NCBI GenBank assembly: GCA_947647735.1
Contig: CANSLJ010000008.1
Span: forward strand, 62,001 to 126,000
Reading direction: 5' to 3'
DNA: 64,000 nucleotides
Origin: an uncultured bacterium
Lineage (GTDB): Bacteria > Bacillota > Clostridia > Lachnospirales > Lachnospiraceae
Shown here in pieces: positions 3,748 through 16,870 of this stretch; position 1 is the stretch's first letter; each line of letters begins with the position of its first letter. Under the pieces are notes generated by a model. The model was given only the letters and a program-made list of their open reading frames with translations, did no database searches and was not told the DNA's origin. Made by a program: the position numbers and the translations under genes.

Positions 3748-3812
3748 TGCTTATATCCTACTCAACAATAAATAACATGAATCACGCATGCAATCAAAAA
3801 AAGAGGTACATT

Positions 3813-5240
3813 ATGAAAAGTATCAGCGAATACCTGTCCGAGGACTACGCTAAATGGGCAGACCGCCCCTACATCAGCACAAAGGAAAACGGCGTATACC
3901 GCGCCTGCACCTTCCGGGAAGCCATCGACGACATCCGTGCCATCTCCAGAGCCCTTTTGTCCCGCGGCCTGGCAGATAAAAACGTGATGCTCTGTTCCGA
4001 AAATTCCCGGGAATGGATTCTCCTTTATTTTGCCATTATGGGGTATGTGGGAACCTGCGTCCCTGTGGACAAGGAGTGGACAACCTATGATCTTCAAAAT
4101 ACTCTTTCCGCCATTCCCGTCTCCGCAGTCTTTTACTCCCGTTCCCGGAAAGAACGGTTTTTGCCCCTGCAGGCACAATATCCTGACACGATCTGGTTTT
4201 GTATCGAAGATATCCTTCCCGGCCTGATCAGAGAAGGAAAGACTTCCTCTCTTCCTCTGCCGGGCAGGACGCAGATGGGCCGGACAGCAATGATCCTGTT
4301 CACCTCGGGTACCACCAATATTCCAAAAGCGATTCCGCTGACACAGGAAAACCTCTTTGCCAACTGGGAAACCCTGTATAAGCGGACGCCCATGACGGAG
4401 CAGGACGTCTCCTATGTCTTTCTTCCGTTTCACCATGTTTACACGGGCGTTGCCAATATCCTGTACACGATCGTATCCGGCATGCAGCTTTTTCTATGCT
4501 CCGGCTTACAATACATGATCCCGGAACTGATGGAGGTCCGACCTACCGTTGTCTGCACCGTTCCGCTGTTTTTATACCAGATGCACCGCGCCATGAGTGC
4601 CGAACTTCTGGAAGTATTGCGGGGCATCCGCTTTCTGTACTGCGGCGGCAGCTTTACGGAACCTGGGGTCAAAGCGTATTTCATCAGACAGGGCATATGC
4701 CTTTTAGAAGCCTACGGCACTACGGAGACATCCTCTGTCATCGCTCTTGCCCTTCCCGGCGATCCGGATCTTGCTGCAAACGGCGTTGTCTTTGAAAATC
4801 TGAACGTGCAGATCCTTGATCCGGATGAAAACGGCGTCGGCGAAATCGTTGTCGCCGGAAAAAGCGTTTCCGCGGGATATTTAAACCGTAATGACCACTA
4901 TTCCGAATTTGACGGGGACGGATATCATACCGGCGATCTGGGGGTGCTCTCCCCGGACGGACATCTGTACCTGAAGGGCAGAAAAAAGCGCATGATCCTG
5001 ACTGCCAACGGCAAAAACGTCTATGTGGACGAGCTGGAAGAGATGCTGCTGCAAAACCCGCTGATCAAAACGGCGACAGTCTTTGAGGAGGATCATCATC
5101 CTGCCGCTTCTCTTGTCAGCGATCTGCCCGAAAAAGAGGTGCAGGACTACCTTGCTGCGGTAAACGCCCGTCTGCCAAAGTATAAACAGATCCGCAGGCT
5201 TTATCTGAAACCAGACACCCCGGGAGGACGTATCAAATGA
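3813..5240 (+). CDS. AMP-dependent acyl-CoA synthetase/ligase
   Basis: A 475-residue ANL-superfamily enzyme. It has the phosphate-binding loop (ILFTSGTTNIPKA), the adenine motif (EAYGTTETS), the YHTGDLG motif, and a small C-terminal domain ending in PGGRIK, whose lysine is the usual adenylation residue. Such enzymes activate a carboxylic acid as the acyl-AMP and then transfer it to CoA or a carrier; the acid is not predictable. The frame opens at GTG 3747, but ATG 3813 is preferred because AAAGAGG lies just upstream. The stop overlaps the next start as ATGA, showing translational coupling. Confidence 0.85.
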   Translation: MKSISEYLSEDYAKWADRPYISTKENGVYRACTFREAIDDIRAISRALLSRGLADKNVMLCSENSREWILLYFAIMGYVGTCVPVDKEWTTYDLQNTLSAIPVSAVFYSRSRKERFLPLQAQYPDTIWFCIEDILPGLIREGKTSSLPLPGRTQMGRTAMILFTSGTTNIPKAIPLTQENLFANWETLYKRTPMTEQDVSYVFLPFHHVYTGVANILYTIVSGMQLFLCSGLQYMIPELMEVRPTVVCTVPLFLYQMHRAMSAELLEVLRGIRFLYCGGSFTEPGVKAYFIRQGICLLEAYGTTETSSVIALALPGDPDLAANGVVFENLNVQILDPDENGVGEIVVAGKSVSAGYLNRNDHYSEFDGDGYHTGDLGVLSPDGHLYLKGRKKRMILTANGKNVYVDELEEMLLQNPLIKTATVFEEDHHPAASLVSDLPEKEVQDYLAAVNARLPKYKQIRRLYLKPDTPGGRIK

Positions 5241-6430
5241 ATTATAAAGTGATCACATTTTCTGAAAAGGACGAAACTGCTATCCGGAAATTTCTGGAGC
5301 TCCCCGGCAGGCTTTATACGAAAAAAGAGCTGATGCAGCAGCCGGAGGAGGAAAGAAAAATCCTGACCGGAACCCATGTGCTGAGCCATTATTTCACGGT
5401 GTACCCGATGCTTGTCTTTTCCGACAGCGGGCATTCTGTGAAGGCTGGCTCCAAGCCGGAAAATAACAGACATGCTTTACAGAACGGCTCCATACCGGGC
5501 ACCGACCTTCATATTCCGTCGGCTGATTTTATATCAGGCAAATATGACACACCCGTCAGCCGTGCCGTCCTGACCATCTACCCGGAAGATCAGGACGCTT
5601 ATCTTGGCTTTTTTGAAAGCGAAAATGATCAGGAAGCAGTCTCCCTGCTGTTTGCGGAAGCGGAAAAGATTGCAAAATCGCAGGGCTGCAGCAGGATCGT
5701 CGGTCCCATTGACGCTTCCTTCTGGATCCGCTACCGCTTTAAGACAAACTGTTTTGACCATTCTTATACAGGAGAGCCCTATAATAAAGATTACTACACC
5801 GCATTATGGCAGCATGCAGACTATGAGATTACCTACCGCTACTACTCCAACCATTACCGGAAAGTGGACCGCTCCCATCAGAATCCGTTGTTTTCGGCAC
5901 GGCTTTCTCAAAAGCTGCAGGAGGGCTATCGCATCGAAAGCCCTTCCAAAACCACTTTTGACCGCGCTCTGAACGAGGTTTACGACCTCCTGATCGAATT
6001 ATATCGGAGCTTCCCCGCCTATAAGCGTATCAGCAGGGAGGAATTTGTCTCTCTCTACAGCTATCTGAAACTCCTGATCCGCTATTCTATGGTAAAAATG
6101 GCATACTATCAGGAAAAACCTGTGGGCTTTTTCATCAGCATCCCCGACTACGGAAACGCTGTCTACGGAAAGCTTACCCTTCTGGATTATCTGCGCATCC
6201 TCAGGATACGCACAAAGCCGAAATCCTATGTGATGCTCTATATGGGTATTGACGCATCCCATCACGGACTCGGCAAGGCGATGGCGGAGGCGATCAAGGA
6301 AGAACTGCAGGCCGCAGGCACACCTTCCGTGGGGGCGCTGATCCGCCAGGGGAATATCAATAAAGATTATTTTCATGAGCTGATCGACTATGAATATGAG
6401 TATGTGCTGCTGAGTAAAGGTATTGGTTGA
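5237..6430 (+). CDS. GNAT-like acyltransferase
   Basis: A 397-residue protein. The N-terminal half (residues about 100-170) has an acetyltransferase-like stretch (RAVLTIYPEDQDAYLGFFES and then the SRIVGPIDASFWIRYRF region). The C-terminal half has a second one (MAYYQEKPVGFFISIPDY, then a short turn and LYMGIDASHHGLGKAMAEAI). I recognise the GNAT fold only by these patterns, so the family call is moderate. It overlaps the acyl-ligase stop by four bases, with GGGAGG upstream as its ribosome binding site. It plausibly transfers the acyl group activated by that ligase. It is the last gene of the cluster. Confidence 0.6.
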   Translation: MNYKVITFSEKDETAIRKFLELPGRLYTKKELMQQPEEERKILTGTHVLSHYFTVYPMLVFSDSGHSVKAGSKPENNRHALQNGSIPGTDLHIPSADFISGKYDTPVSRAVLTIYPEDQDAYLGFFESENDQEAVSLLFAEAEKIAKSQGCSRIVGPIDASFWIRYRFKTNCFDHSYTGEPYNKDYYTALWQHADYEITYRYYSNHYRKVDRSHQNPLFSARLSQKLQEGYRIESPSKTTFDRALNEVYDLLIELYRSFPAYKRISREEFVSLYSYLKLLIRYSMVKMAYYQEKPVGFFISIPDYGNAVYGKLTLLDYLRILRIRTKPKSYVMLYMGIDASHHGLGKAMAEAIKEELQAAGTPSVGALIRQGNINKDYFHELIDYEYEYVLLSKGIG

Positions 6431-6434
6431 AGCC

Positions 6435-6572
6435 TGCCGTCAGGGGGAAATATATCCGGCTCAGACACGCTTCCGCTTGGAGAAAAACGCAGCGGTACTA
6501 GGCTCGAAAATACCTCACCAAGTGCCGGCGTTTTTCTACAGTCTTCGCCGGATATATTTCCCCCTGACGGCA
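6435..6572. repeat. Nested inverted-repeat element, copy 1
   Basis: Perfect 26-base inverted arms (6435-6460 and 6547-6572) enclose a second hairpin (6481-6490 with 6528-6537). Read on the minus strand, the core runs GAAAAACGCCGGCACTTGG, then GAGGTA, CGAGCCTAGTACCG, GCGTTTTTC and AAGCG-AGCGTG. The same core occurs at 19450-19532. It lies between two convergent genes and codes for nothing visible. Confidence 0.85.
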
Positions 6573-6603
6573 TGATTGAGCCTAAGATTGACAAGGGAAA
6601 GAT

Positions 6604-6978
6604 TTAACTCAGCATCCCGCCCAACATGCCGCCTCCCACGCACAGCAGCGCGGTGGTCGTGAAATCTGAGGATAGCTGGGGGAAGGAGCGGTTTACGATG
6701 GCGGATATGACAAACAGCACCAGAAAATACAGCGCTCCCATCACCGCCCCCCAGAAAAATTTTCTCGTCCTCTTCTTCTTTCCGGTAATAAAACCTGCGA
6801 AAAAGGATGTGGCAATGTAGATCAGAATGACACAGACATTGACAACCTTCTCCGACAGATGCAGCCTGTAGAGCAGAAAAGCCAGCAGCAGCAGAAATCC
6901 CCCCGTCAGGATATAAGAAAACAGCAGGCACTTTAATGTAAATAATATCTGCGGCATATATTTTTTTGTAACAGACAT
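6604..6978 (-). CDS. TIGR04086-family membrane protein
   Basis: A 124-residue protein with about four hydrophobic segments, a conserved FFAGFITGKKKRTRKFFWG loop and a glycine-rich end (LLCVGGGMLGGMLS). This matches the small clostridial TIGR04086/YrzE-type membrane family, whose function is unknown. A GGGGGAG ribosome binding site precedes the ATG at 6978. It is a single gene, convergent with the GNAT gene and ending 32 bases from the repeat element. Confidence 0.7.
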   Translation of the reverse strand: MSVTKKYMPQILFTLKCLLFSYILTGGFLLLLAFLLYRLHLSEKVVNVCVILIYIATSFFAGFITGKKKRTRKFFWGAVMGALYFLVLFVISAIVNRSFPQLSSDFTTTALLCVGGGMLGGMLS

Positions 6979-7055
6979 ATTTTCTCCCCCTTTCTTTTGG
7001 GAATGAAGCCCCTATAAAAACTTTGTAATATTTTCCTTAAAGAAATATATGCTTC

Positions 7056-7084
7056 TTGACAACACAGTATTCTGTTTATAGAAT
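7056..7084 (+). promoter_or_regulatory. Sigma-A type promoter of the CNNM/CBS gene
   Basis: TTGACA (7056-7061), a 17-base spacer and TAGAAT (7079-7084). A TATTCT (7069-7074)/AGAATA (7080-7085) inverted repeat covers the -10 box and could be an operator. Confidence 0.7.
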
Positions 7085-7143
7085 ATATCGTATGAATTTA
7101 TTTGGCGGATACGCCATAGTTAATGAAAAAGAAAGGAACTCTC

Positions 7144-8433
7144 ATGGATACCACTGGTGTCATACAACTTCTTATCTTACTCGTTCTTCTGATTTTATCA
7201 GGCTTTTTTTCCTCTGCGGAGACCTCTCTGACCTGTGCCAACAAGGTCCGCATCCGTTCTCTCGCCGAGGATGGCAATAAAAAGGCTCTTCGTGTTCAAA
7301 CCATTTTAGAATCCTACAGCAAGATGCTCAGCACGATCCTGATCGGCAACAATATCGTCAATATCGGTGCCTCTTCGCTTGCCACTACTTTAACGATCCG
7401 TTTGTTCGGCAATCAGTTTGTGGGCATATGTACCGGCATTTTGACGTTTCTCGTGCTGATCTTCGGTGAGATCGTACCGAAAACCTGGGCCGGCTCCCAT
7501 GCCGATAAGATCGCTCTCGCCTACAGCGGCATTATCCGCGGACTGATGATCCTGCTGACCCCTGTGATCTGGGTGGTGGACAATATCGCCAGCGGCATTA
7601 TCCGTCTTTTTCATCTGGGTGCAGACCCCGGCGAGGGCAGCATCACAGAAGATGAACTGCGTACCTATGTGGATGTAAGCCATGAGGAGGGCGTGATCGA
7701 ATCCGAGGAAAGAGAATATATTCATAACGTGTTTGATTTTTCCGATTCCACAGCATCGGAGATCATGATCCCGCGTATCGACATGACTTCCATCTCCTCC
7801 TCGGCTTCCTATGATGAGATTTTTGCTCTGTTTAAAAAGACCATGTATACCAGAATTCCGGTTTATGAGGAAGAAAATCCCGATAATATCATCGGTTTTG
7901 TTCATATGAAGGATTTCCTTTTGACAAAGGATTCCCCCAGATTTAAGGTAAATAAGATCCTTCGTCCGGTCTACTACACCTACGAGCGAAAAAAAACCTC
8001 CGACCTTCTGGTGGAGCTTCGGGAAAAGACAACCAGCCTTGCCATCGTGCTGGATGAATACGGGTCTGCCGTGGGCATGATCACAATGGAGGATCTGCTG
8101 GAGGAGATTGTGGGCGAGATCCGTGATGAATATGACGCCGATGAGGCGGAGCTGATCAAGCAGATTGATGAGCGTACATACCTCATCGAGGCCGGCATGA
8201 AGCTGGATGATGTAAATGATGCCCTGCATCTTACTCTTGAATCAGAAGATTTTGATTCACTGGGCGGCATCATGATTGATAAGCTGGACCGCCTGCCCAA
8301 AAATAATGAGATCGTTGCACTGGAGGACGGCTCTACTTTACAGGCGCGGGGCATTTCCCAGAACCGGATACGCAAGGTGCTGATGAAGCTGCCGGTCACA
8401 GCGGAAGAAATGAACGAAGAAGAACACTCATAA
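7144..8433 (+). CDS. CNNM/HlyC-CorC family protein with CBS pair
   Basis: About 429 residues. The N-terminal DUF21/CNNM membrane domain (LSGFFSSAETSLT near residue 20, then GEIVPKTWA) is followed by two CBS motifs (about 200-320, including EIMIPRIDM and VLDEYGSAVGMITMEDLLEEIVGEI) and a C-terminal CorC/HlyC domain. Members are linked to divalent cation (Mg, Co) transport rather than to haemolysis. ATG 7123 is possible, but ATG 7144 has AAAGGA six bases upstream and is preferred. It is monocistronic, with a promoter upstream and a hairpin downstream. Confidence 0.85.
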   Translation: MDTTGVIQLLILLVLLILSGFFSSAETSLTCANKVRIRSLAEDGNKKALRVQTILESYSKMLSTILIGNNIVNIGASSLATTLTIRLFGNQFVGICTGILTFLVLIFGEIVPKTWAGSHADKIALAYSGIIRGLMILLTPVIWVVDNIASGIIRLFHLGADPGEGSITEDELRTYVDVSHEEGVIESEEREYIHNVFDFSDSTASEIMIPRIDMTSISSSASYDEIFALFKKTMYTRIPVYEEENPDNIIGFVHMKDFLLTKDSPRFKVNKILRPVYYTYERKKTSDLLVELREKTTSLAIVLDEYGSAVGMITMEDLLEEIVGEIRDEYDADEAELIKQIDERTYLIEAGMKLDDVNDALHLTLESEDFDSLGGIMIDKLDRLPKNNEIVALEDGSTLQARGISQNRIRKVLMKLPVTAEEMNEEEHS

Positions 8434-8442
8434 CAGACAGAT

Positions 8443-8473
8443 AATGCCGCCGGATAAATTGTCCTGCGGCATT
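8443..8473 (+). terminator. Hairpin after the CNNM/CBS gene
   Basis: AATGCCGC (8443-8450) pairs with GCGGCATT (8466-8473). A second small hairpin, GCTGA-TTTTA-TCAGC, follows directly. There is no strong T-run, so termination is probable but not certain. Confidence 0.5.
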
Positions 8474-8518
8474 GCTGATTTTATCAGCTTTATATGGGTA
8501 TTATTGCTTGAAAAACGC

Positions 8519-8547
8519 TTGCCATCTGATTTCTATTCTGCTATACT
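8519..8547 (+). promoter_or_regulatory. Promoter of the Rpn gene
   Basis: TTGCCA (8519-8524), 17 bases, TATACT (8542-8547). This leaves a leader of about 125 bases before ATG 8682, in which GTGAAAA (about 8554) and TTTTCAC (about 8625) could pair. Confidence 0.55.
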
Positions 8548-8681
8548 CAATCTGTGAAAACAATTCAGACAGGCTTTCTGCCATGTCTCTTTTATCAGGC
8601 GTTTCGCCACAGCTCTTCGCTGATTTTTCACAACCTGAAGCATATTACTAAACAATCACAATACATAAGAAAGGACTTTTT

Positions 8682-9623
8682 ATGCCAGAAAAAAACATTA
8701 TCGGCAGCAAGCTGTGGGATGAGATCCTGAAAGCCATAGTTTATGTTATGCCAAAACAATTATTCCCGCTCATTAAGGAAGTTTACGGAATAGAATATCC
8801 TCCTGATACACCTGTCAGGCTTCTTGGCACAGAACATTCTACTTACACAAATAACACAGAAGCTTCTCCCTCATCCAACCTGATGGACATCTCCCTTTTG
8901 ATTGCAGACAAAGACTACTTCCACATCGAATGCCAGATGGAAAATGATAAGATAATGGTGATCCGCATGATCTCCTACGATCTGCATTATGCTATTGAAC
9001 ACTGTATCTCAAAAGATCATTTAGCAGATGAGCTCATCATCCGTTTTCCACATTCTTTTGTGCTCTATCCCGGACAGAACAAAAACCTTCCGGACAGCCT
9101 GCAGTGCCGGATCATATTTCAGGATGACAGCGAACATATTTACCGGATTCCCGCCGTCAAAATTCAGTCCTATTCTCTGGAAGAAATCCATGAAAAGCAT
9201 CTGAATCTGTTCATCCCCTATCTGCTGCTCAGATTAAACCCCCGCATCACTTCAAAAAAGTATCCTCTTTCTAAAAAAGAATTGACAGCTTTTTTGAATG
9301 AGATTATAGTAATATTACAAGAGGACTTAACTAATGGATATTTAACAAAACAGGAATGTAATGATTTTATCAATCTGCTGGTCCAGGCATCCGGACATGT
9401 ATTCTTTCATTGCCCTGAATATCACAAGGAGGTACTCCGTATGACAAAACCGTTAATTTATCTTCCCAGTATGCAGATCATGGATCTGGAGGCCCGTATT
9501 GCAGAAATGAATTCCGCCTTGGCTGAAAAAGATTCTGCTCTAGCTGAAAAGGATTCCACTATAGCTGAAAAAGATTCGGAAATCGCAGCCCTTCGGGCAG
9601 CGCTTGAATCCTTGACGCACTAA
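8682..9623 (+). CDS. Rpn-family recombination-promoting nuclease
   Basis: A 313-residue PD-(D/E)XK-type protein (transposase_31/Rpn family). The nuclease core is visible at about residues 67-110: MDISLLIAD, then FHIECQMEND, supplying the acidic residue and the E-x-Q pair. The C-terminal 60 residues are a separate helical tail with near-identical heptads (SALAEKD, SALAEKD, STIAEKD) that should form a coiled coil. AAAGGAC precedes ATG 8682. In this family the tail mediates oligomerisation, and E. coli homologues are reported to act in phage defence. A strong internal start at 9441 is annotated separately. It stands alone between its own promoter and a terminator. Confidence 0.8.
   Translation: MPEKNIIGSKLWDEILKAIVYVMPKQLFPLIKEVYGIEYPPDTPVRLLGTEHSTYTNNTEASPSSNLMDISLLIADKDYFHIECQMENDKIMVIRMISYDLHYAIEHCISKDHLADELIIRFPHSFVLYPGQNKNLPDSLQCRIIFQDDSEHIYRIPAVKIQSYSLEEIHEKHLNLFIPYLLLRLNPRITSKKYPLSKKELTAFLNEIIVILQEDLTNGYLTKQECNDFINLLVQASGHVFFHCPEYHKEVLRMTKPLIYLPSMQIMDLEARIAEMNSALAEKDSALAEKDSTIAEKDSEIAALRAALESLTH
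9441..9623 (+). CDS. Intragenic C-terminal product of the Rpn gene (predicted)
   Basis: Inside the Rpn gene, AAGGAGGT (9426-9433) lies eight bases before an in-frame ATG at 9441 (residue 254). Starting there gives a 60-residue protein consisting only of the heptad-repeat coiled coil, without the nuclease core. As I recall from the literature, E. coli rpnA encodes such a short intragenic product that inhibits the full-length toxin. The ribosome binding site here is stronger than that of the full-length gene, which supports real use. No expression evidence is available. Confidence 0.55.
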   Translation: MTKPLIYLPSMQIMDLEARIAEMNSALAEKDSALAEKDSTIAEKDSEIAALRAALESLTH

Positions 9624-9625
9624 GC

Positions 9626-9669
9626 CTTGCCTGCGGTAATCTGGCATGAAAATCCTTACCACAGGCAGG
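9626..9669 (+). terminator. Terminator of the Rpn gene
   Basis: CTTGCCTGCGGTAA (9626-9639) pairs with TTACCACAGGCAGG (9656-9669) at 12 of 14 positions, followed by TTTATATT. It begins three bases after the stop codon. Confidence 0.7.
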
Positions 9670-9943
9670 TTTATATTCATCAATACATTTTCCAGACGAT
9701 TTTCCGCATTATATCTACACTTTTTCGGACGATCTTATCTCCTTCAATTACATTTTCAATCAAATCTGTACTCGTATCACTCTTTATCAAAAAATCACAA
9801 TTATCCGTGTTCACTGTGCTTTTGGTAAAACATAAACATCTGTCCCCAAATAAAAATGCTAAAATAGATAAAAACCTTCGCACATTTTACCCCTCACACC
9901 CGTTAATCATAATAGATGGAAAACCACAAGGAGCCAGCAGACC
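9670..9943. other. Gene-free AT-rich spacer
   Basis: AT-rich spacer between the Rpn terminator and the sigma-factor gene. The reading frames here are short, low in complexity and lack ribosome binding sites. A TAAAAT box at 9860-9865 may belong to the sigma operon promoter, but no matching -35 is seen. Confidence 0.5.
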
Positions 9944-10417
9944 ATGTCCATGGATATCGAGAAGCAGTATGACCGGATCTACCGCTACTGCTACTTCAAG
10001 CTGAAAAACCGGGAGCGCGCCGAGGATATCACGCAGGAAACCTTCCTCCGGTATCTGGAGCGCTACCACTTTGTCTCCCCGGAGACAGCACTCAAATATT
10101 TATATACGATCGCCCGGAATCTCTGCATCGATGAATACAGAAAGCCCGCCGTCGTCCCTCTGGAGGAAAACACCGGAGGGGACACTGCTGGAATGACTTT
10201 TGAGGAGGATGCTTTGCTGACAAATCTTACGCTCCATCTGGTATTGCAGGAGATGACGCAGGAGGAACAGGAACTCCTGCTGCTCCGGTATGTCAACGAA
10301 GTACCGACCTCTGTGATCGCAAAGCTTTACGGCATCTCCCGCTTCGCCCTGCGCCGAAGGCTTCTTGCGGCATCTGAAAAGTTAAAAAAGAAACTCGGAA
10401 AGGAGGATTTCTCATGA
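9944..10417 (+). CDS. ECF-type sigma-70 family RNA polymerase sigma factor
   Basis: A 157-residue two-domain sigma factor. Region 2 spans about residues 8-70 (YRYCYFKLKNRERAEDITQE, then TIARNLCIDEYRK) and region 4 about residues 95-150 (LLLLRYVNEVPTSVIAKLYG, followed by a recognition helix). AAGGAG lies ten bases before ATG 9944; ATG 9950 is a near-equivalent start. It overlaps the next gene as ATGA and leads an ABC exporter operon, so it probably drives that operon, as in bacitracin-type resistance modules. No classical anti-sigma domain is recognised; the membrane protein next to it is the only candidate. Confidence 0.85.
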   Translation: MSMDIEKQYDRIYRYCYFKLKNRERAEDITQETFLRYLERYHFVSPETALKYLYTIARNLCIDEYRKPAVVPLEENTGGDTAGMTFEEDALLTNLTLHLVLQEMTQEEQELLLLRYVNEVPTSVIAKLYGISRFALRRRLLAASEKLKKKLGKEDFS

Positions 10418-11121
10418 GACACACACTGAAAGAAGAATTAAAAAAAGCGTTTGAAGCACCCGCCCCCAGGCGGAAAGCGGTATTTCTGCAGACAGTAAAG
10501 CCTGCGGGATTACACTTTTTTGATTTCGTCCTGATACAGGCAGGCTATATCCGCATATGGATCTGGGGCATCTCTTTTCTTGTTTTTGCCATCTCTCTCT
10601 TTTGCAGCCTTGCCCTCTCTCTCGACATGCTCTGGGCGATCTCAGCCTCCATGCCGCTACTTGCACTTATGATGATCGCCGAGACCGGGCGCTCCGCACA
10701 TTACAAAATGGCGGAACTGGAGACAGCTTCCAGATTTTCCTTAAAGAGCGTCATTCTTGCCCGCCTCTGCGTTCTGGGCCTGGGCAATCTGGTGCTCCTC
10801 TGCCTACTGCTCCCCATCGCTCTCCGAAACAGTTACGTGTCCCCTTTGCAGGCGGGATTTTATATCATCACCCCCTTTTTGCTGACTGCCTTTCTCTGTC
10901 TGCACATCCTCCGCAGACGGCGTGAACCGGAAGCCCTCTATCTGTGCATCGGGACATCCGCCGGTATCAGCTCGTTTATCTTTCCGCTCCGCCAAATGCT
11001 TCCGGCACTGTATGAGGAGTGCTCGCTCATAAGCTGGATCCTTGCCGCAGCGTTTCTCGGTATCGGCGTTATAAAACAATATCAAAATCTCATCAACGAG
11101 GAGGCACCTGTATGGAACTGA
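10414..11121 (+). CDS. Six-helix membrane protein in sigma/ABC operon
   Basis: A 235-residue protein. A charged cytoplasmic N-terminus of about 40 residues precedes about six transmembrane segments (for example LVFAISLFCSLALSL and LVLLCLLLPIAL). Family not recognised. The coupled position after a sigma factor and before an ABC ATPase suggests an anti-sigma-like sensor or a transporter subunit. Its stop lies inside the following ATPase gene. Confidence 0.6.
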   Translation: MRHTLKEELKKAFEAPAPRRKAVFLQTVKPAGLHFFDFVLIQAGYIRIWIWGISFLVFAISLFCSLALSLDMLWAISASMPLLALMMIAETGRSAHYKMAELETASRFSLKSVILARLCVLGLGNLVLLCLLLPIALRNSYVSPLQAGFYIITPFLLTAFLCLHILRRRREPEALYLCIGTSAGISSFIFPLRQMLPALYEECSLISWILAAAFLGIGVIKQYQNLINEEAPVWN

Positions 11122-11807
11122 CCATCGACCGGATATCAAAACAATATCAAAACAAGATTGCCGTGGACCGGATTTCCCTGCATCTTGGCAAGGGCGTCCA
11201 CGGACTGCTGGGTGCCAACGGCGCCGGCAAAACCACTCTGATGCGCATGATCTGCGGTATTTTAAAACCCGACAGCGGCACGATCGCCTTCGACAAAATC
11301 CCTGCGGAGGCGGAAGCCTACCGCGCCGTTTTAGGCTATCTGCCTCAGGACTTCGGCTATTACCCGGAATTTACCGGAACAGACTTTCTGCTCTACCTCG
11401 CCGCCCTCAAGGGCATCCCGAAAGAAAAGGCAAAACAAAAAACGGAGGAACTGCTGGAACTTGTCTCCTTATCCGATATGTCCCGAAAAAAGATCAAAAC
11501 TTTTTCCGGCGGTATGAAACAAAGGCTCGGCATCGCCCAGGCTCTGCTGAATGATCCAAAGCTCCTGGTTCTGGATGAACCGACAGCCGGCCTTGATCCA
11601 GCGGAGCGCGTGCGTTTTCGCGATCTGATCGAAGGGCTCGGAAAAAACAGCATTGTATTATTATCCACACACATCGTATCTGATATCGAACATATCGCCG
11701 ACCAGGTCCTTATCATGAAGGAAGGACAGCTTATCTATCAGGGTAAGCGTGAGGAGAACAGCGGCGATCTGGAAAGCTTTTATCTGGAACAGCAAAGAGG
11801 GAGGTAA
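11112..11807 (+). CDS. ABC transporter ATP-binding protein
   Basis: A 231-residue single nucleotide-binding domain: Walker A GANGAGKTT (residues about 35-43), Q-loop LPQDFGYY, signature FSGGMKQRLG, Walker B LLVLDEPTAGLDP and switch histidine STHIV. It resembles BcrA/CcmA-type exporters. ATG 11112 is chosen because homology begins there and GAGG lies before it; the longer frame upstream is overlap with the preceding gene. It energises the permease encoded next. Confidence 0.9.
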   Translation: MELTIDRISKQYQNKIAVDRISLHLGKGVHGLLGANGAGKTTLMRMICGILKPDSGTIAFDKIPAEAEAYRAVLGYLPQDFGYYPEFTGTDFLLYLAALKGIPKEKAKQKTEELLELVSLSDMSRKKIKTFSGGMKQRLGIAQALLNDPKLLVLDEPTAGLDPAERVRFRDLIEGLGKNSIVLLSTHIVSDIEHIADQVLIMKEGQLIYQGKREENSGDLESFYLEQQRGR

Positions 11808-11811
11808 TTTT

Positions 11812-13023
11812 ATGGAAATTCTGAAAACACTTTACAAATACGAACTGAAAAAAATAATCGGAAGAAAAATATGCCGGATCACGCTGCTCCTTTGCCTGTC
11901 TGTCATTCTCTTTCTTTCCGTTATGCAGCTCGGCGGAAAATCCTACGTGGACGGGGAAGTGGCAGATACCCACTACCACATGTTCCGGGTGGATCAGGCG
12001 TATGAGAGAGCGCTCTCCGGCAGAGCCATCGATGACACGCTCCTGCGTGAGACGATGGATGCCTACCGACAGATCCCGGATCCGGAAGGCAGATATACCC
12101 TGACCGACGAATACCAGACTTACGCCCGCCCCTATTCCGCGATCTGTCAGCTCATCAGCCGATGGACCACCCTTGACCTTCTGACGGATATCCTGAGAGC
12201 CGATCCGGATGAAGAGGCCTTTTATCAGGCAAGACAGGATTTCCTGCGGGAGCATTGGCAAAACTATCTTCTGACCGACAGGGAAAAAGAATTCTGGTCC
12301 CGCAAGGAAACCGAAATCCATACCCCTTTTACCTACTATTATCACGAAGGATACACCATGCTGTCCAAAAGCTTTAACTCTCTCTGCATACTGATCCCTC
12401 TCTTTATCGCCGTATGCCTCTCCGGCGTATTTCCGGAGGAACATACCAGGCGCACCGACCAGCTCATCCTCTCCAGCGCGAAAGGGAAAAATACGGTCTA
12501 CCTCGCAAAGATCCTCGCCGGCATCACAGTCTCCTTTGCAGGCACCTTCCTTATGCTTCTCACATCCGTAGCGTTATGCCTCGGCATTTACGGAACAGAC
12601 GGCTTCGGAATGCAGATGCAGGTGACGCCCTACCCCTTTTCCTATCCGATGACGATCGGAGAGGCATGCCTGATCATGGGCGGTGTCGCTCTCATCCTCT
12701 CCGTCTTTATCAGTGTCTTTGTCATGATATTGTCAGAGACTTTGCACAGCAGCATTGCCGCGCTCGCTGTTTCCTCCGCGCTGATCCTTCTAAGCGTCTC
12801 TCTCAACCTGCCGCCGCAATATCGGATCATCGCACAGATATGGAACTGGCTTCCCTTTTCCTTTCTGAATATATGGAACATTTTCGATGTGAGAACGCTT
12901 CCCCTCTTCGGACACTGCCTGGTCTCATGGCAGATCGTTCCAATCCTCTACCTTCTTTCTGCTGTGCTGCTGGCGGCGGGCGGAAGAAAAATATATCAAA
13001 AATACCAGATCTCAGGACGGTAA
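11812..13023 (+). CDS. ABC-2 type transporter permease
   Basis: A 403-residue membrane protein. One N-terminal transmembrane helix (residues about 20-38) is followed by an extracytoplasmic domain of about 170 residues and then roughly six C-terminal helices beginning at LCILIPLFIAVCLSGVF. This is the ABC-2 exporter layout. GGGAGG lies before ATG 11812. It is the last gene of the sigma/membrane protein/ATPase/permease operon, closed by a terminator. The substrate is not predictable. Confidence 0.75.
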   Translation: MEILKTLYKYELKKIIGRKICRITLLLCLSVILFLSVMQLGGKSYVDGEVADTHYHMFRVDQAYERALSGRAIDDTLLRETMDAYRQIPDPEGRYTLTDEYQTYARPYSAICQLISRWTTLDLLTDILRADPDEEAFYQARQDFLREHWQNYLLTDREKEFWSRKETEIHTPFTYYYHEGYTMLSKSFNSLCILIPLFIAVCLSGVFPEEHTRRTDQLILSSAKGKNTVYLAKILAGITVSFAGTFLMLLTSVALCLGIYGTDGFGMQMQVTPYPFSYPMTIGEACLIMGGVALILSVFISVFVMILSETLHSSIAALAVSSALILLSVSLNLPPQYRIIAQIWNWLPFSFLNIWNIFDVRTLPLFGHCLVSWQIVPILYLLSAVLLAAGGRKIYQKYQISGR

Positions 13024-13046
13024 AATAATGAGCTCCGCGAACTCGA

Positions 13047-13086
13047 AAAGCCGGATATCTCTTCCACATAACAGACATCCGGCTTT
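13047..13086. terminator. Bidirectional terminator
   Basis: AAAGCCGGAT (13047-13056) pairs with ATCCGGCTTT (13077-13086), with A-rich sequence before and CCCCTTTT after. It serves the rightward ABC operon and can serve the leftward radical SAM operon. Confidence 0.75.
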
Positions 13087-13093
13087 CCCCTTT

Positions 13094-14149
13094 TCATTTC
13101 ACATCCATCAAAATCTCCTCGGTCGGAATCCAAGAGCCGCTGAGCACACCGTTCGTATGAAACACCATCTCATACACCACATCCCGGTGCCTGCTTTTTT
13201 CCCGATACTGCTGCTCTAAATCCGCCGATTCCCCGGCGATCCGGCATCCGTGATAATCGTACAGTTCCACATAATAATAGTATCCCAGCAGATTCATATA
13301 AGGCGTGATCTCCGGATCCCGCTCCATCTCCTCCCAAACCTCGTTCAGGTCAACCTTGTTTTTATCACAGTACGCGATCTTTTCCAGATTCACCGCCTTA
13401 TGGTCATAGTCCATCAACTGACGGAAAATAAAATTGTCAACACCGTACTGCCTGTAAAAATCCACATACTCCTTGATCCCCGCAGCATTATGTACCGCCG
13501 GTTTCAACAGGATACAGCTCATGCGGATGCGCATGTTTCCCTTCCCGGCTGCTTTTGCGATCTGCCGGATATCCTCATTGGAACAATAGCTGTCATCCGC
13601 CCCATAGCGCATAATCTCCCTGTTTTTCTCCTCGTCCACACATACCCTGCTGATATTCAGATGATCAAACCCCCGTTCCATCAGATGTGTCGCAATGGTC
13701 TTTCCCTCCGTCACACGGAGCAATCCGCTGCCGTTTGTCGTGATGGTCCGCTTCCGAAAACCGAGTTCATCCACCATACGGATGATCGGAAGAAGCCTTG
13801 GCGAGATGGTCGGCTCGCCTCCGGTTATGCTGACGCTGGGATTCAGGGGACGGATCGCCTCCAGCACCTCCCTGAGCCGTGCCAGATACCGCTGATCCTC
13901 CCTGATATGCTCCTTCTGATAAAGCTGTTTTCTGTGCTCATAGCGAAGCTGTGCCACACAGAACCGGCAGTCCGCATTGCATTCATCATCCACAAAAATA
14001 CTCAGATTCAGATTTTGGTAGGCTTTCCTTTCCCCCGCCTCAAAATGCCACGGGACAAGCTCATAATCGTATATATTGTAATCCGCCTGCCTCTGATACC
14101 GCAGGCTCCGGTCAAATCTGACCTCTCTCTCCGCTCCCACTTTTACCAT
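13094..14149 (-). CDS. Radical SAM protein (third of three)
   Basis: About 351 residues from ATG 14149. The 4Fe-4S cluster motif is Cys57-x3-Cys61-x2-Cys64 (CNADCRFC). The SAM-binding GGE is at SITGGEPT and a TTNGSGLL strand follows, as in MoaA-like radical SAM enzymes. It begins inside the end of the preceding radical SAM gene (ATATGGTAA overlap), so translation is coupled. It resembles that neighbour (NLN before the cysteines, GGEPT, TNGxGLL), suggesting duplication. No auxiliary-cluster SPASM domain is evident. Substrate unknown; see the operon finding. Confidence 0.85.
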   Translation of the reverse strand: MVKVGAEREVRFDRSLRYQRQADYNIYDYELVPWHFEAGERKAYQNLNLSIFVDDECNADCRFCVAQLRYEHRKQLYQKEHIREDQRYLARLREVLEAIRPLNPSVSITGGEPTISPRLLPIIRMVDELGFRKRTITTNGSGLLRVTEGKTIATHLMERGFDHLNISRVCVDEEKNREIMRYGADDSYCSNEDIRQIAKAAGKGNMRIRMSCILLKPAVHNAAGIKEYVDFYRQYGVDNFIFRQLMDYDHKAVNLEKIAYCDKNKVDLNEVWEEMERDPEITPYMNLLGYYYYVELYDYHGCRIAGESADLEQQYREKSRHRDVVYEMVFHTNGVLSGSWIPTEEILMDVK

Positions 14150-15150
14150 ATTGTCCGCAGCTCTCCTTCCTCGTAGATCAGGGACGTCACCAGCTCTTCC
14201 CCTTCCTCCGCACAACCCTTTTGTGCCTTCCCGGGTTTTCCCTGATAATGCTTGATCAGTTTATCTCCGAAACTATAGATATCCACATCATATACCATGC
14301 CATGCGCTGTCTTTAAAAGTTCCATGTCCTGTTCCTGTTTCATTTCTGTCACAATATCCGAAACCGATATATATTCTTTATTTTTATCATCTGCCATAAC
14401 ATCTGATACATGTTTTTTATCCCTGTCAGCCGTTTCCGAAACAACGGTGCTCTTCTTCGGAGGAATGATCTCCCTGAACAAAAAAGAGGTAATTCCATAC
14501 GTCCCATAAAAATCCATATATTCCCTGATCTTCTCCCAGCTGTCCACCGAACCCTCCAGCAGATTACAGCTCAGCCTGAGATCCATGTCATTTACCTCCG
14601 CAAAAACCGCCGCCTGACTGATCCCGCCGTTCCTTATCGTATCTCCGCGAAAGATCCGCCGGTTTTCCGCTTCGTCCACTGCCATTCTGCTCAGACTGAT
14701 ATTATAAATGCAGCCCGTTTCCTTCATATACTGCATCAACGGCTTTCCATCGACCCGCTTCAAAAGCCCCGTACCGTTTGTGGAAAAGGTCCGGTGAGAA
14801 AATCCATATTTCTTTACCATTTCCAGCACATGGATCAATCTTTCCGGGTACAGTGTCGGCTCCCCGCCTGTGATCGTGATCTCCACCGGAAGCCCTCTTA
14901 AACGCTTCATCACAGCTTCCAGCCCTGCCAGATATGCCTCGTCACCGATCTGCTTTTTCATCCTCTTTCCCTGAAAAAAACAGAATCCGCAATCGCAGTT
15001 ACACATCCGCCCGATCACAATATTCAGATTGCAGGGACTATACATCTTCCGCTTCTTTCCCTGTATCTCCAGTTCCCAGATCCCCGCAGTTTCCAGGTTA
15101 TGCCGCTCTGTCAGGAGCTTTTTCCTGTCCGTTATTTTCAGCGTGTTCAA
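14143..15150 (-). CDS. Radical SAM protein (second of three)
   Basis: 335 residues with Cys50-x3-Cys54-x2-Cys57 (CNCDCGFC; an extra cysteine at 52), TITGGEPT and STNGTGLL. It is a MoaA-like radical SAM protein with a charged, low-complexity insert around residues 240-270 (SETADRDKKHVSDVMADDK) before its last part. The start is TTG at 15150 with AGAGG seven bases upstream; no ATG occurs before residue 36. The sequence just upstream is a degenerate tandem repeat. Confidence 0.85.
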   Translation of the reverse strand: MNTLKITDRKKLLTERHNLETAGIWELEIQGKKRKMYSPCNLNIVIGRMCNCDCGFCFFQGKRMKKQIGDEAYLAGLEAVMKRLRGLPVEITITGGEPTLYPERLIHVLEMVKKYGFSHRTFSTNGTGLLKRVDGKPLMQYMKETGCIYNISLSRMAVDEAENRRIFRGDTIRNGGISQAAVFAEVNDMDLRLSCNLLEGSVDSWEKIREYMDFYGTYGITSFLFREIIPPKKSTVVSETADRDKKHVSDVMADDKNKEYISVSDIVTEMKQEQDMELLKTAHGMVYDVDIYSFGDKLIKHYQGKPGKAQKGCAEEGEELVTSLIYEEGELRTIW

Positions 15151-15286
15151 TTCCGTACCTCTATTTCATTCCCGCTTCTGGCAATCACTTCCATGCCTCT
15201 CTTTTCATCCCCGCCTTTGACGGTCACTTCCATACCTCTCTTTTCATCTCTGCTTCCATCAGTCAGCTCCACACCTCTTTTTCATA
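15145..15286 (-). repeat. Degenerate tandem repeat of a gene 3' end (38-39 bp units)
   Basis: On the minus strand four units begin at 15286, 15248, 15209 and 15170, each starting (T/G/A)ATGAAA, then AGAGG, TGGA and TGA. Unit one is the actual end of the first radical SAM gene (codons YEKEVWS and stop). The last unit contains the start of the second radical SAM gene. Units two and three are about 85% identical. Confidence 0.8.
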
Positions 15287-15961
15287 CTCACTTCTTGCGA
15301 TCAGATCCATCCCGAAAGACGTTCCATCCGATGCGAAAAGTTCAAACTCCTCGATATTCTGCACGATCACCGGTTTCCTGTAATCACTGCTTTCCGACAA
15401 TCTCCCATAAGATTGTAAATAGTAAATATTGGAATGACTGAGGAGAAGCTTATCCTGCTCCACTTCCTCCCGCAGTGCCTCATCCCCCTGCTTTCGAAGC
15501 CGCACATTGCATGTAATCTTAACGTCCGGAATAAACTCTGCGGCAAATATCAGATTTCTTATCTGATCCAAATGCCCGCTGTTTTCCTTGATCAGCCAGT
15601 AATTGATGGATATTTTAATTTCCAGCGGAATTCCGTATTCACCGGAAAACATCACAAGGCGTTTTTGATGTACAGGAAGCAACATCCCGTTTGTCAAGAT
15701 CAATATCTTTCTGCATCGCTTCGTGAATCTGGCATATTCCAGAAACAAGTACAGATCAGGGTGCACCAGCGGTTCCCCGCCCTCTAACTGCAACTCAAAT
15801 TCCTTTTCACAGCCGTCAATGATCCCTTTATATGTCTCAAAATCCATATCCCTGCTGTTTGATACGCCGGAATACATACAGCAGAACGGACACTCTGTAT
15901 TGCATCGGTTGGTAATGTCTATGTACAGCCGTTTTCCTTTTTTTAGTTCTGTCTTGTTCAT
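15263..15961 (-). CDS. Radical SAM protein (first of three)
   Basis: A short 232-residue radical SAM protein with Cys20-x3-Cys24-x2-Cys27 (CNTECPFC) after a LYIDITNR strand, LQLEGGEPL for SAM binding and LILTNGMLL. It is smaller than its two neighbours and less similar to them; it looks like a minimal core domain. GGGGAGG lies six bases before ATG 15961. It follows the NADAR gene by 125 bases in the same direction. Substrate unknown. Confidence 0.85.
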   Translation of the reverse strand: MNKTELKKGKRLYIDITNRCNTECPFCCMYSGVSNSRDMDFETYKGIIDGCEKEFELQLEGGEPLVHPDLYLFLEYARFTKRCRKILILTNGMLLPVHQKRLVMFSGEYGIPLEIKISINYWLIKENSGHLDQIRNLIFAAEFIPDVKITCNVRLRKQGDEALREEVEQDKLLLSHSNIYYLQSYGRLSESSDYRKPVIVQNIEEFELFASDGTSFGMDLIARSEYEKEVWS

Positions 15962-16024
15962 TTCTGCCTCCCCGCCGGCTTCCTGATCACCGTCTTTCTG
16001 CTGCTTACTTTTCTCCTCATCTCA

Positions 16025-16148
16025 GCATCCGATTCCGCCTCTTTTTCCTCCGACAACAGACTCCGCACTTCTGTCAGCGCAGATCATCAATTGCTTCCGC
16101 CGTCCTTCTCCGCCAGCAGCAGATCCCGCACCTCCGTCAGCGCAAATC
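16025..16148 (-). repeat. 63 bp tandem duplication of the NADAR gene 3' end
   Basis: The last codons of the NADAR gene (ALTEVRDLLLAEKDGG) are repeated 63 bases downstream in the same frame as ALTEVRSLLSEEKEAES, after two consecutive TGA stops. Over the best 32 bases the copies match at about 26 positions. The second copy continues open for about 40 codons to just before the first radical SAM gene. Confidence 0.75.
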
Positions 16149-16656
16149 CCAGCAGATTCTTTCCCCGCCATTTCAACGGATCCTGAGCATCCGGATTTGC
16201 CTTCCCCATACCGATTCCCCAGATCCGGTCTCTCGGGCTCGCCTCCACTATAATCCGGTTTTTTGTTGTCAGAAGAAACTCCAGAAGTTCCGGATTCTGG
16301 GAAAATTTCGCCATATTTCCTCTTTTTACGATATCATAACAGCTGTTATCCCATGTTTCTTTATCAAAACCGGACACTGCCCTTCCATACCCCTTCATCT
16401 CCTTCGGATGAGACGCCTTCATGATCTCCGCAAGCATAGCCTCATCCCCGAACATCCTGGCTTTCTCCGCCATCATAAACTGCTCCGCACAGCTGTACTC
16501 CACCCCGTCCACCTGAAAGCCGCACTTCCACCACTGACTGAGACAGGCTTCGTTGATATGCCCGTCCGCCGCCGGCGTATGTCCCCAGAAAAACAGGAAT
16601 TTGAATGTCTCTCCCTCATTACAGGCTTTTTTCAGATCGTTAATATTGTAGATCAT
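16087..16656 (-). CDS. NADAR family protein (YbiA-like)
   Basis: A 189-residue NADAR protein: FFWGHTP near residue 22, SQWWKCGF, YSCAEQFMMAEKARMFGD (catalytic glutamate region), a GYGRAVSGFD stretch, and IWGIGM near residue 148. Members hydrolyse N-glycosidic bonds: YbiA acts on riboflavin precursors, and others remove ADP-ribose from modified guanine. No riboflavin genes are nearby. It leads an apparent operon with three radical SAM genes. GGGAGGAG precedes ATG 16656, and a consensus promoter lies at 16790-16762. Confidence 0.85.
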   Translation of the reverse strand: MIYNINDLKKACNEGETFKFLFFWGHTPAADGHINEACLSQWWKCGFQVDGVEYSCAEQFMMAEKARMFGDEAMLAEIMKASHPKEMKGYGRAVSGFDKETWDNSCYDIVKRGNMAKFSQNPELLEFLLTTKNRIIVEASPRDRIWGIGMGKANPDAQDPLKWRGKNLLGFALTEVRDLLLAEKDGGSN

Positions 16657-16738
16657 AAATACTCCTCCCTTCGGTTCTCTTTACCTATTATTCTACATCA
16701 TGATACTGATTTTTTATATCAGATTTATTATTTATCAC

Positions 16739-16870
16739 TTTGATATTATCAAATTGATTATATTATAAATAAGAACATAAGTTATGTCAATACAAACTTT
16801 CATTTTAATCAAAAAAATAACCGCCCTCGTCACAGTACGGTTATTTTCTAATTATTGAATATAATCAAAT
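16739..16870 (-). promoter_or_regulatory. Consensus promoter and operator-like palindromes of the NADAR operon
   Basis: On the minus strand TTGACA (16790-16785), 17 bases, TATAAT (16767-16762), a perfect consensus. The palindrome TTTGATATTATCAAA (16739-16753) sits at the expected transcript start. A related sequence, TTGAATATAATCAAA, lies at 16855-16869. Both are followed by the same TTG. A repressor could bind both. Confidence 0.7.
16814..16847. terminator. Terminator-like hairpin
   Basis: AAAATAACCG (16814-16823) pairs with CGGTTATTTT (16838-16847), with an A-run on one side and T-rich sequence on the other. It can end the leftward hisS-aspS transcript. Confidence 0.6.

Follow-up and report, generated by a model that had tools for sequence, protein, structure and literature searches.

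Introduction

Bacterial operons for the salvage of nicotinamide adenine dinucleotide (NAD) that are controlled by NrtR bring together PncA, PncB, NadD, NadE and NADK, and phages have NAD+ pathways of their own, built in the NARP type from NAMPT and phosphoribosyl pyrophosphate (PRPP) synthetase. To our knowledge, radical S-adenosylmethionine (SAM) enzymes are members of neither. MoaA and the prokaryotic viperins, both radical SAM enzymes, act on nucleotides. The NADAR/YbiA family, which includes DarT-NADAR and YarT-YbiA, has in common with the gene studied here the NADAR domain and a glutamate in its last strand.

Here we analyse an operon that combines a NADAR gene with three radical SAM genes, in a stretch of 64,000 nucleotides (the window) from an uncultured bacterium of the Lachnospiraceae (GenBank assembly GCA_947647735.1, contig CANSLJ010000008.1). 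On the minus strand, under a single promoter, an N-glycosidase-family NADAR gene (16656..16087; 189 residues) is followed by rSAM1 (15961..15263), which encodes a minimal protein of 232 residues, rSAM2 (15150..14143; 335 residues, TTG start) and rSAM3 (14149..13094; 351 residues); we refer to the last three as the trio. In contrast to the described NADAR/YbiA systems, the operon partner of NADAR is the trio in the window and NrtR in three sister genomes. We find that in related loci, from bacteria of the gut and rumen and from phages, the trio lies without NADAR and shows a recurrent link to NAD genes across several separate lineages; this points to a step of NAD metabolism that has yet to be described.

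Among the papers that our searches listed, no title or abstract beginning links radical SAM enzymes to NADAR, NAMPT, NrtR or other NAD terms; the terms do co-occur in full texts, for example radical SAM with NAD terms in PMC9486876. The accessible part of a preprint on phage NAD+ pathways lacks the term 'radical' (PMC13232231). The jumbo phages phiRP12/phiRP31 and pPa_SNUABM_DT01 have grouped radical SAM genes that resemble the trio by description only. As far as their accessible text goes, the reports place such a group with NAPRTase and PRPP synthetase (PMC5468394) or with NADAR, Nudix and macro proteins (PMC8541153) and draw no link to NAD; another sets NADAR beside phage NAD salvage genes, and the words radical SAM are absent from the part available (PMC9503650). 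A lead connecting NADAR to natural products (PMC12159101) was dropped because 'NADAR' is there the name of an author.

Results

Loci related to the trio were collected with two rSAM3 sequences as query. This gave, from 79 candidate stretches, 19 bacterial loci (L005-L023) and, from 138, 16 virus loci (L024-L039); a later scan added a virus contig of 375 kb (L113). Three virus loci (L037-L039, 22-24% identity) are too distant and enter only the NADAR counts; near-identical virus records (L024/L026, L030/L031/L036 and L025/L035) were counted separately. One bacterial locus, L018, is only 3 kb long, and rSAM3 in L023 and L027 was located by tblastn, an antisense open reading frame (ORF) lying over it in the ORF set.

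The NAD genes near the trio were first recognised by reading clusters of unknown ORFs. With Pfam, 11 of 20 neighbours tested scored above the cut-off of an NAD, Nudix or adenosine diphosphate (ADP)-ribose family (NAD_synthase, CTP_transf_like, NAPRTase/NAMPT, Isochorismatase, CinA, NAD kinase, NrtR_WHD, NUDIX and ADP_ribosyl_GH); a PRPP-synthetase-like neighbour scored below its own. NAD genes were present in 8 of the 19 bacterial loci (39 genes from 11 families) as against 2 of 38 control stretches (Fisher p 0.0013), and at least three were found in 7 of the 19 loci as against none of the controls (p 0.0002), in a comparison whose families were picked after the loci had been viewed, whose models were trained on the same loci and whose controls (572 kb, from 18 of the 19 genomes) are contig starts. 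The counts per locus are seven in L010, three in L011, nine in L012, four each in L016 and L017, one in L018, six in L020 and five in L022, and the genes include PncA, PncB/NAMPT, NadD, NadE, NADK, PncC and NrtR. In L012, for example, the order is PncA, PncB, Nudix, NadE, NadD, rSAM1-3, a P-loop gene, an ADP-ribosylglycohydrolase, PncC, a DUF5662 gene, NADK and NrtR.

Because the models were trained on the earlier loci and the families chosen from them, a genome found later by rSAM3 alone and absent from model building (G808, locus L128) provides a fair test. Indeed, it carries rSAM1-2-3, PncA, PncB, Nudix, NadE, NadD, NADK and NrtR in one run. The genes and the regulator of the NrtR-controlled salvage operons stand beside the trio, to varying extent, in L010, L012, L017, L020, L022 and L128. 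In the rSAM3 tree, NAD-linked loci fall into at least four branches; L017 and G808 lie within the window's clade, whose support is only 0.69. We consider the link between the trio and NAD genes well supported, and the neighbourhoods fit the original prediction's guess of a nucleotide-directed or damage-repair system. It is unlikely that the trio is a mobile set for the modification of peptides or nucleic acids and sits near NAD genes by accident. The absence of nearby NAD genes from 11 of the 19 bacterial loci would suit such chance proximity, as would a PDB search in which rSAM1 resembles the peptide epimerase YydG and other maturases, but the excess of NAD genes over control recurs in separate branches and in the contiguous run of G808.

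Viral relatives are consistent with the same association. Single-sequence scans of viral sequences gave no match; a two-row alignment did. Dulem virus 40, a phage, has rSAM1-like and rSAM3-like genes side by side (36% and 51% identical). NAD genes occur in the virus loci L034, L035 and L036, and the NAPRTase family in 6 of 14 virus records and in 5 of the 7 IMG/VR records of at least 89 kb, a count made without a virus control. NAMPT occurs with PRPP-synthetase-like genes, as in the phage NAD+ pathways, in L016, L020, L035 and L036, the synthetase being named by reading and a sub-threshold Pfam match; the pair is absent from the window. In L036 it lies about 5 kb from rSAM3. That record belongs to a virus group (L028-L032, L036) in which rSAM3 occurs alone, flanked by genes whose products read like proteins of the ASCH-domain and ParB types. 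A distant relative of rSAM3 in Dickeya phage AD1 (L040, 6675-9167) is one gene away from an RNA 2'-phosphotransferase, an NAD-dependent enzyme.

The gene content of these loci suggests what the unit is. Since rSAM1 and rSAM3 stand in one run in 27 of the 33 loci L004-L036, and the third gene varies, rSAM3 and rSAM1 look like the core of the module. The six loci without rSAM1 are similar virus contigs that carry rSAM3 alone; the third gene is rSAM2, an rSAM3-like enzyme fused to a domain of about 340 residues, both of these (L019) or absent. The module is rare and patchily distributed: a phylum sample of 398 genomes yielded rSAM3 once and the family of genome G302 (291 genomes) twice (limit 1e-25 in both), and a family sample of 397 genomes twice (limit 1e-40), counts that include the window's genome and G302 themselves; an order sample of 295 genomes yielded rSAM2 once. 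The second genome of the family sample, G1242, has a 60-base stretch in common with L007 and is probably the genome of that locus or near it. A search of plasmids for rSAM2 gave no match at 1e-10.

Several neighbours were noted in their own right. The domain of about 340 residues has five invariant cysteines (GGCPCTL, C.HRQHFT, CFG) and is fused to the rSAM3-like enzyme in eight loci (L005:9049, L006:9049, L008:5324, L009:5341, L017:5332, L019:3554, L020:6262 and L023:5332). Its motifs read like a DHH-type phosphoesterase, an assignment that we rejected: neither Pfam (one protein, L005) nor NCBIfam (two of eight) supports it, no PDB match had an E lower than 0.19, and comparing its profile with that of a single DHH protein gave 0.6% probability. 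A P-loop protein behind rSAM3 in six loci had sub-threshold AAA matches in Pfam (one protein), no family name in NCBIfam (two proteins) and a best E of 0.05 in a PDB profile search. Serine-recombinase-like proteins, so named by reading, lie near the trio at L014:4493-6076, L009:835-2607 and L013:14900-16462, in L014 directly before rSAM1, and are a possible vehicle of the module.

We next turn to the enzymes themselves. Each of the three exceeds the PF04055 cut-off of 29.5 (32.5, 39.2 and 38.8 bits), in keeping with the original prediction. Among the 25 best-listed NCBIfam families per enzyme, none reaches its cut-off. The description 'MoaA-like' holds at superfamily level and fails at family level. 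The best NCBIfam models of rSAM3 are viperin and MoaA, which score 55-58 bits where the cut-offs range from 180 to 325; the best scores of the trio are 57.2 bits for the MoaA equivalog TIGR02666 (cut-off 284) and 57.7 bits for prokaryotic viperin NF038283 (cut-off 180), both with rSAM3. MoaA and prokaryotic viperin are among the best general matches of the trio, which nevertheless falls far below the equivalog cut-offs and has no conserved cysteines for a second cluster.

The rSAM3 protein aligns with MoaA (2fb2) over the barrel. Its CxxxCxxC motif and Cys212 are kept in 30 of 30 aligned sequences, and an invariant Arg209, three residues upstream of Cys212, stands opposite a MoaA lysine that binds the substrate triphosphate. 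The paralogue rSAM2, 35% identical to rSAM3 over 266 residues, keeps its MNT(I/L)K start in relatives and CxxxCxxC in 12 of 13 alignment rows; because the L015 copy has lost the cluster cysteines, rSAM2 may be a helper. In rSAM1, CxxxCxxC is intact and invariant in a 24-row alignment, with one further invariant cysteine, C28. Auxiliary-cluster cysteines of the SPASM/twitch kind were not seen, C212 of rSAM3 and C28 of rSAM1 being the only ones conserved beyond CxxxCxxC.

These similarities bear on a second reading, in which viperin-like chemistry of the trio yields an altered NAD or ADP-ribose nucleotide that withstands or inhibits NAD-consuming defences against phages; this conflict would be the reason why phages and their hosts have the trio together with NAD salvage genes. 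The best PADLOC matches of rSAM2 and rSAM3 are indeed prokaryotic viperins (52 and 60 bits), the trio occurs in phages together with NAMPT/PncB and other NAD genes, its distribution is rare and patchy, and serine-recombinase-like neighbours, named from a cluster and by reading, are present in L009, L013, L014 and L020. However, the viperin cut-off is missed widely, and in bacteria the trio shares a single run of genes with ordinary housekeeping enzymes of salvage and with a Nudix hydrolase. We find this explanation doubtful, if worth keeping in view.

A further possibility is that the trio supplies the nicotinate ring or its precursor by an anaerobic route, as an alternative to de novo synthesis. 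In its favour, 11 of 20 trio genomes, the window's included, have no NadA match, and the trio is located in NrtR-type salvage operons. However, NadA is present in the other 9, for which reason we rejected the trio as a general replacement of de novo synthesis; the genomes may have gaps (that of the window is 86.55% complete), PncA and PncB in the same operon imply uptake of the ready-made vitamin, and phages would gain little. Such a supply route is very unlikely.

We then asked how the trio came to lie behind NADAR. The NADAR gene itself is as originally described (PF08719 at 183 bits, cut-off 35.1), and the protein matches TIGR02464, riboflavin-intermediate N-glycosidase, at 162.9 bits against a cut-off of 73.7, a match that marks the family and says nothing on substrate. 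It reaches 39.9 bits with the model of the anti-phage NADAR protein DS32_2 (NF053876), below the cut-off of 240. Glu175, in the last strand (TEVRD), suggests the YbiA type, assigned by eye with the subfamily rule found in the accessible part of PMC11125620.

The linkage of NADAR to radical SAM genes that the original prediction proposed did not hold up elsewhere: by profile and tblastn, NADAR is found in none of 38 related loci (L004-L039, L113 and L128), and we rejected it as a conserved partner of the trio. PF08719 is present in only 3 of the 33 genomes or records behind L004-L036, in none of the three within the trio locus. The pairing is local. In the genus, the rSAM3 profile matches one of nine genomes, the window's own, and NADAR is present in six; the trio is in none of the eight sisters and NADAR orthologues, 78-86% identical, are in five. 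NADAR is a resident gene of the genus, and the trio is an insert.

The clearest view of this insert comes from the sister G332, which has the same neighbours on both sides and 59 bases in place of window positions 13017..16107. Positions 3755-6875 of the G332 locus (L050) align with window 9924-13016, and 6935-7493 with 16108-16666, which is the arrangement of an empty site. In another sister, G330, 34 bases directly behind NADAR match rSAM3 at 30/34 positions and translate in frame to GIREYVDFYRK (E 5e-6 by blastn of 3.1 kb against 1.4 kb, but only 0.037 by tblastn). Short as the match is, the stretch is likely, though not certainly, a decayed trio. Because G330 holds two other ORFs in the trio's place, the site may be a small insertion hotspot. 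These lie at L051 5682-6697, a DUF3788 gene and a cysteine-containing ORF of 185 residues. In the other three NADAR-bearing sisters the flanks of NADAR differ from those of the window.

Signs of rearrangement are also seen within the operon. After the NADAR stop, at 16033..16081 on the minus strand, the gap before rSAM1 repeats roughly the final 50 bases of NADAR (local score 27; maximum 17 in 2000 shuffles), a putative scar of insertion or recombination. An imperfect tandem repeat at 15147..15285 (39-base unit, 3.6 copies) covers the rSAM1 stop and the rSAM1-rSAM2 gap and re-copies the coding end of rSAM1, stop codon included. Of the start/stop overlaps first described, the one between rSAM2 and rSAM3 stands (7 bases); the other two junctions are gaps of 125 bases (NADAR-rSAM1) and 112 bases (rSAM1-rSAM2).

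NADAR and the trio could still form one dedicated pathway, as the original prediction had it. The common promoter, the duplicated NADAR end before rSAM1 and the possible remnant in G330, which would make the arrangement older than one genome, speak for it, but the lack of NADAR from every related locus and the five sisters that hold NADAR without an intact trio make it distinctly unlikely.

In three of the five NADAR-bearing sisters, NrtR lies directly behind NADAR, which is consistent with the nucleotide-directed guess. The NrtR of one of them (L052), a Nudix-winged-helix protein and the one of the three that was scanned, matches Pfam NrtR_WHD at 64 bits; our NrtR model, built with L052 itself included, gives 408-418 bits in all three. 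Outside the genus, two of the three PF08719 places in the genomes or records behind L004-L036 were viewed (L055 and L056). In L056 (genome G312, 7041-9987) NADAR is fused to a DHH domain (434 residues; Pfam) and directly follows a CxxxCxxC protein of 545 residues without a Pfam match, a possible second, separate NADAR neighbour of radical SAM type.

The signals before NADAR suggest how it might be controlled. The promoter is, as described, a perfect sigma-70-type consensus (TTGACA-17-TATAAT, 12/12; 16790..16762, minus strand), and is conserved in six genomes of the genus; the five sisters each have both hexamers. Of the palindromes reported beside it, the most telling is TTTGATAATATCAAA (16739..16753), a putative NrtR operator by sequence match. 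The motif TGATA(A/T)TATC(A/T)AA follows the -10 box before NADAR in all six genomes, and the full palindrome is there in two, the window's and G330. An identical 15-mer, TTTGATATTATCAAA, lies 82 bases upstream of rSAM1 in the NAD operon of G808 (L128:7464), and the core TGATAATATCA lies 30 bases upstream of NrtR in L017. The window's genome has an NrtR homologue about 50% identical, located elsewhere. Control of NADAR and of the trio-NAD operons by NrtR is suggested, not proved, by these matches.

At its other end the operon is bounded by a terminator-type hairpin, as had been claimed (13035..13100, minus strand; -29.4 kcal/mol, z -6.1; none of 200 shuffles as good), which probably acts in both directions.

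Discussion

The best explanation of these data, and on balance the one we favour, is that the trio serves NAD metabolism as a mobile accessory module, acting on a pyridine nucleotide or an ADP-ribose compound. That it has some role in NAD or ADP-ribose metabolism we regard as probable; its substrate and chemistry are inferred.

In the mechanism we propose, rSAM3, aided by rSAM1 and usually by an rSAM2-type partner, would use a 5'-deoxyadenosyl radical on a nucleotide of the NAD, nicotinamide mononucleotide or ADP-ribose group. The reaction would take place in a MoaA-like barrel, with Arg209 at the place of the MoaA lysine and the invariant Cys212 as a possible hydrogen donor. A nucleotide-type barrel, a possible hydrogen-donor cysteine and a place in salvage operons together fit a radical reaction on a pyridine nucleotide. 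The module would then bring a pyridine nucleotide that is damaged, modified or otherwise unusable back into the pool from which PncA, PncB, NadD and NadE rebuild NAD, and NADAR, in the window, would cleave a related ADP-ribosyl compound at its N-glycosidic bond. Salvage or repair seems the likeliest job, because the module has its operon and its probable operator in common with salvage enzymes; in this specific form we hold the proposal tentatively.

Several observations weigh against a module of NAD metabolism. Eleven of the 19 bacterial loci, searched up to 8 kb on each side, and 11 of 14 virus loci (L004, L024-L036), in the stretch searched, have no NAD gene, and the bacterial enrichment carries the selection of families, models and controls described above. 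NADAR is the only NAD or ADP-ribose gene found in the window, and 19 kb around the NrtR homologue of the same genome holds no other modelled NAD family. NadA is kept in almost half of the trio genomes. As to the palindrome, 25 stretches totalling 428 kb (the window, L005-L023, L034, L035, L036, L113 and L128) contain seven cores, only three of them no more than 100 bases from a gene start; in the control stretches there are three, none at such a distance, one of these three being a full 15-mer inside a gene. The window's genome has one exact TTTGATAWTATCWAA site, that before NADAR. Finally, the roles of Cys212 and Arg209 are read from sequence alone.

More speculatively still, we can imagine a radical-SAM branch of NAD metabolism. 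Its three cooperating enzymes, spread by phages and mobile elements and switched on together with NAD salvage by NrtR, would chemically alter a pyridine nucleotide at its ribose or nicotinamide. The outcome would be either the rescue of an NAD derivative that is otherwise a dead end or an NAD variant able to evade NAD-destroying defences, while NADAR would remove an ADP-ribosyl by-product.

The synthesis and salvage of NAD are regarded as well mapped; nonetheless, bacteria and phages put three radical enzymes in these operons. If the trio does act on pyridine nucleotides, it would bring to light a so far unknown reaction in the metabolism of a central cofactor, for which only a few substrates would have to be considered, and it may belong to the contest between phages and bacteria over NAD.

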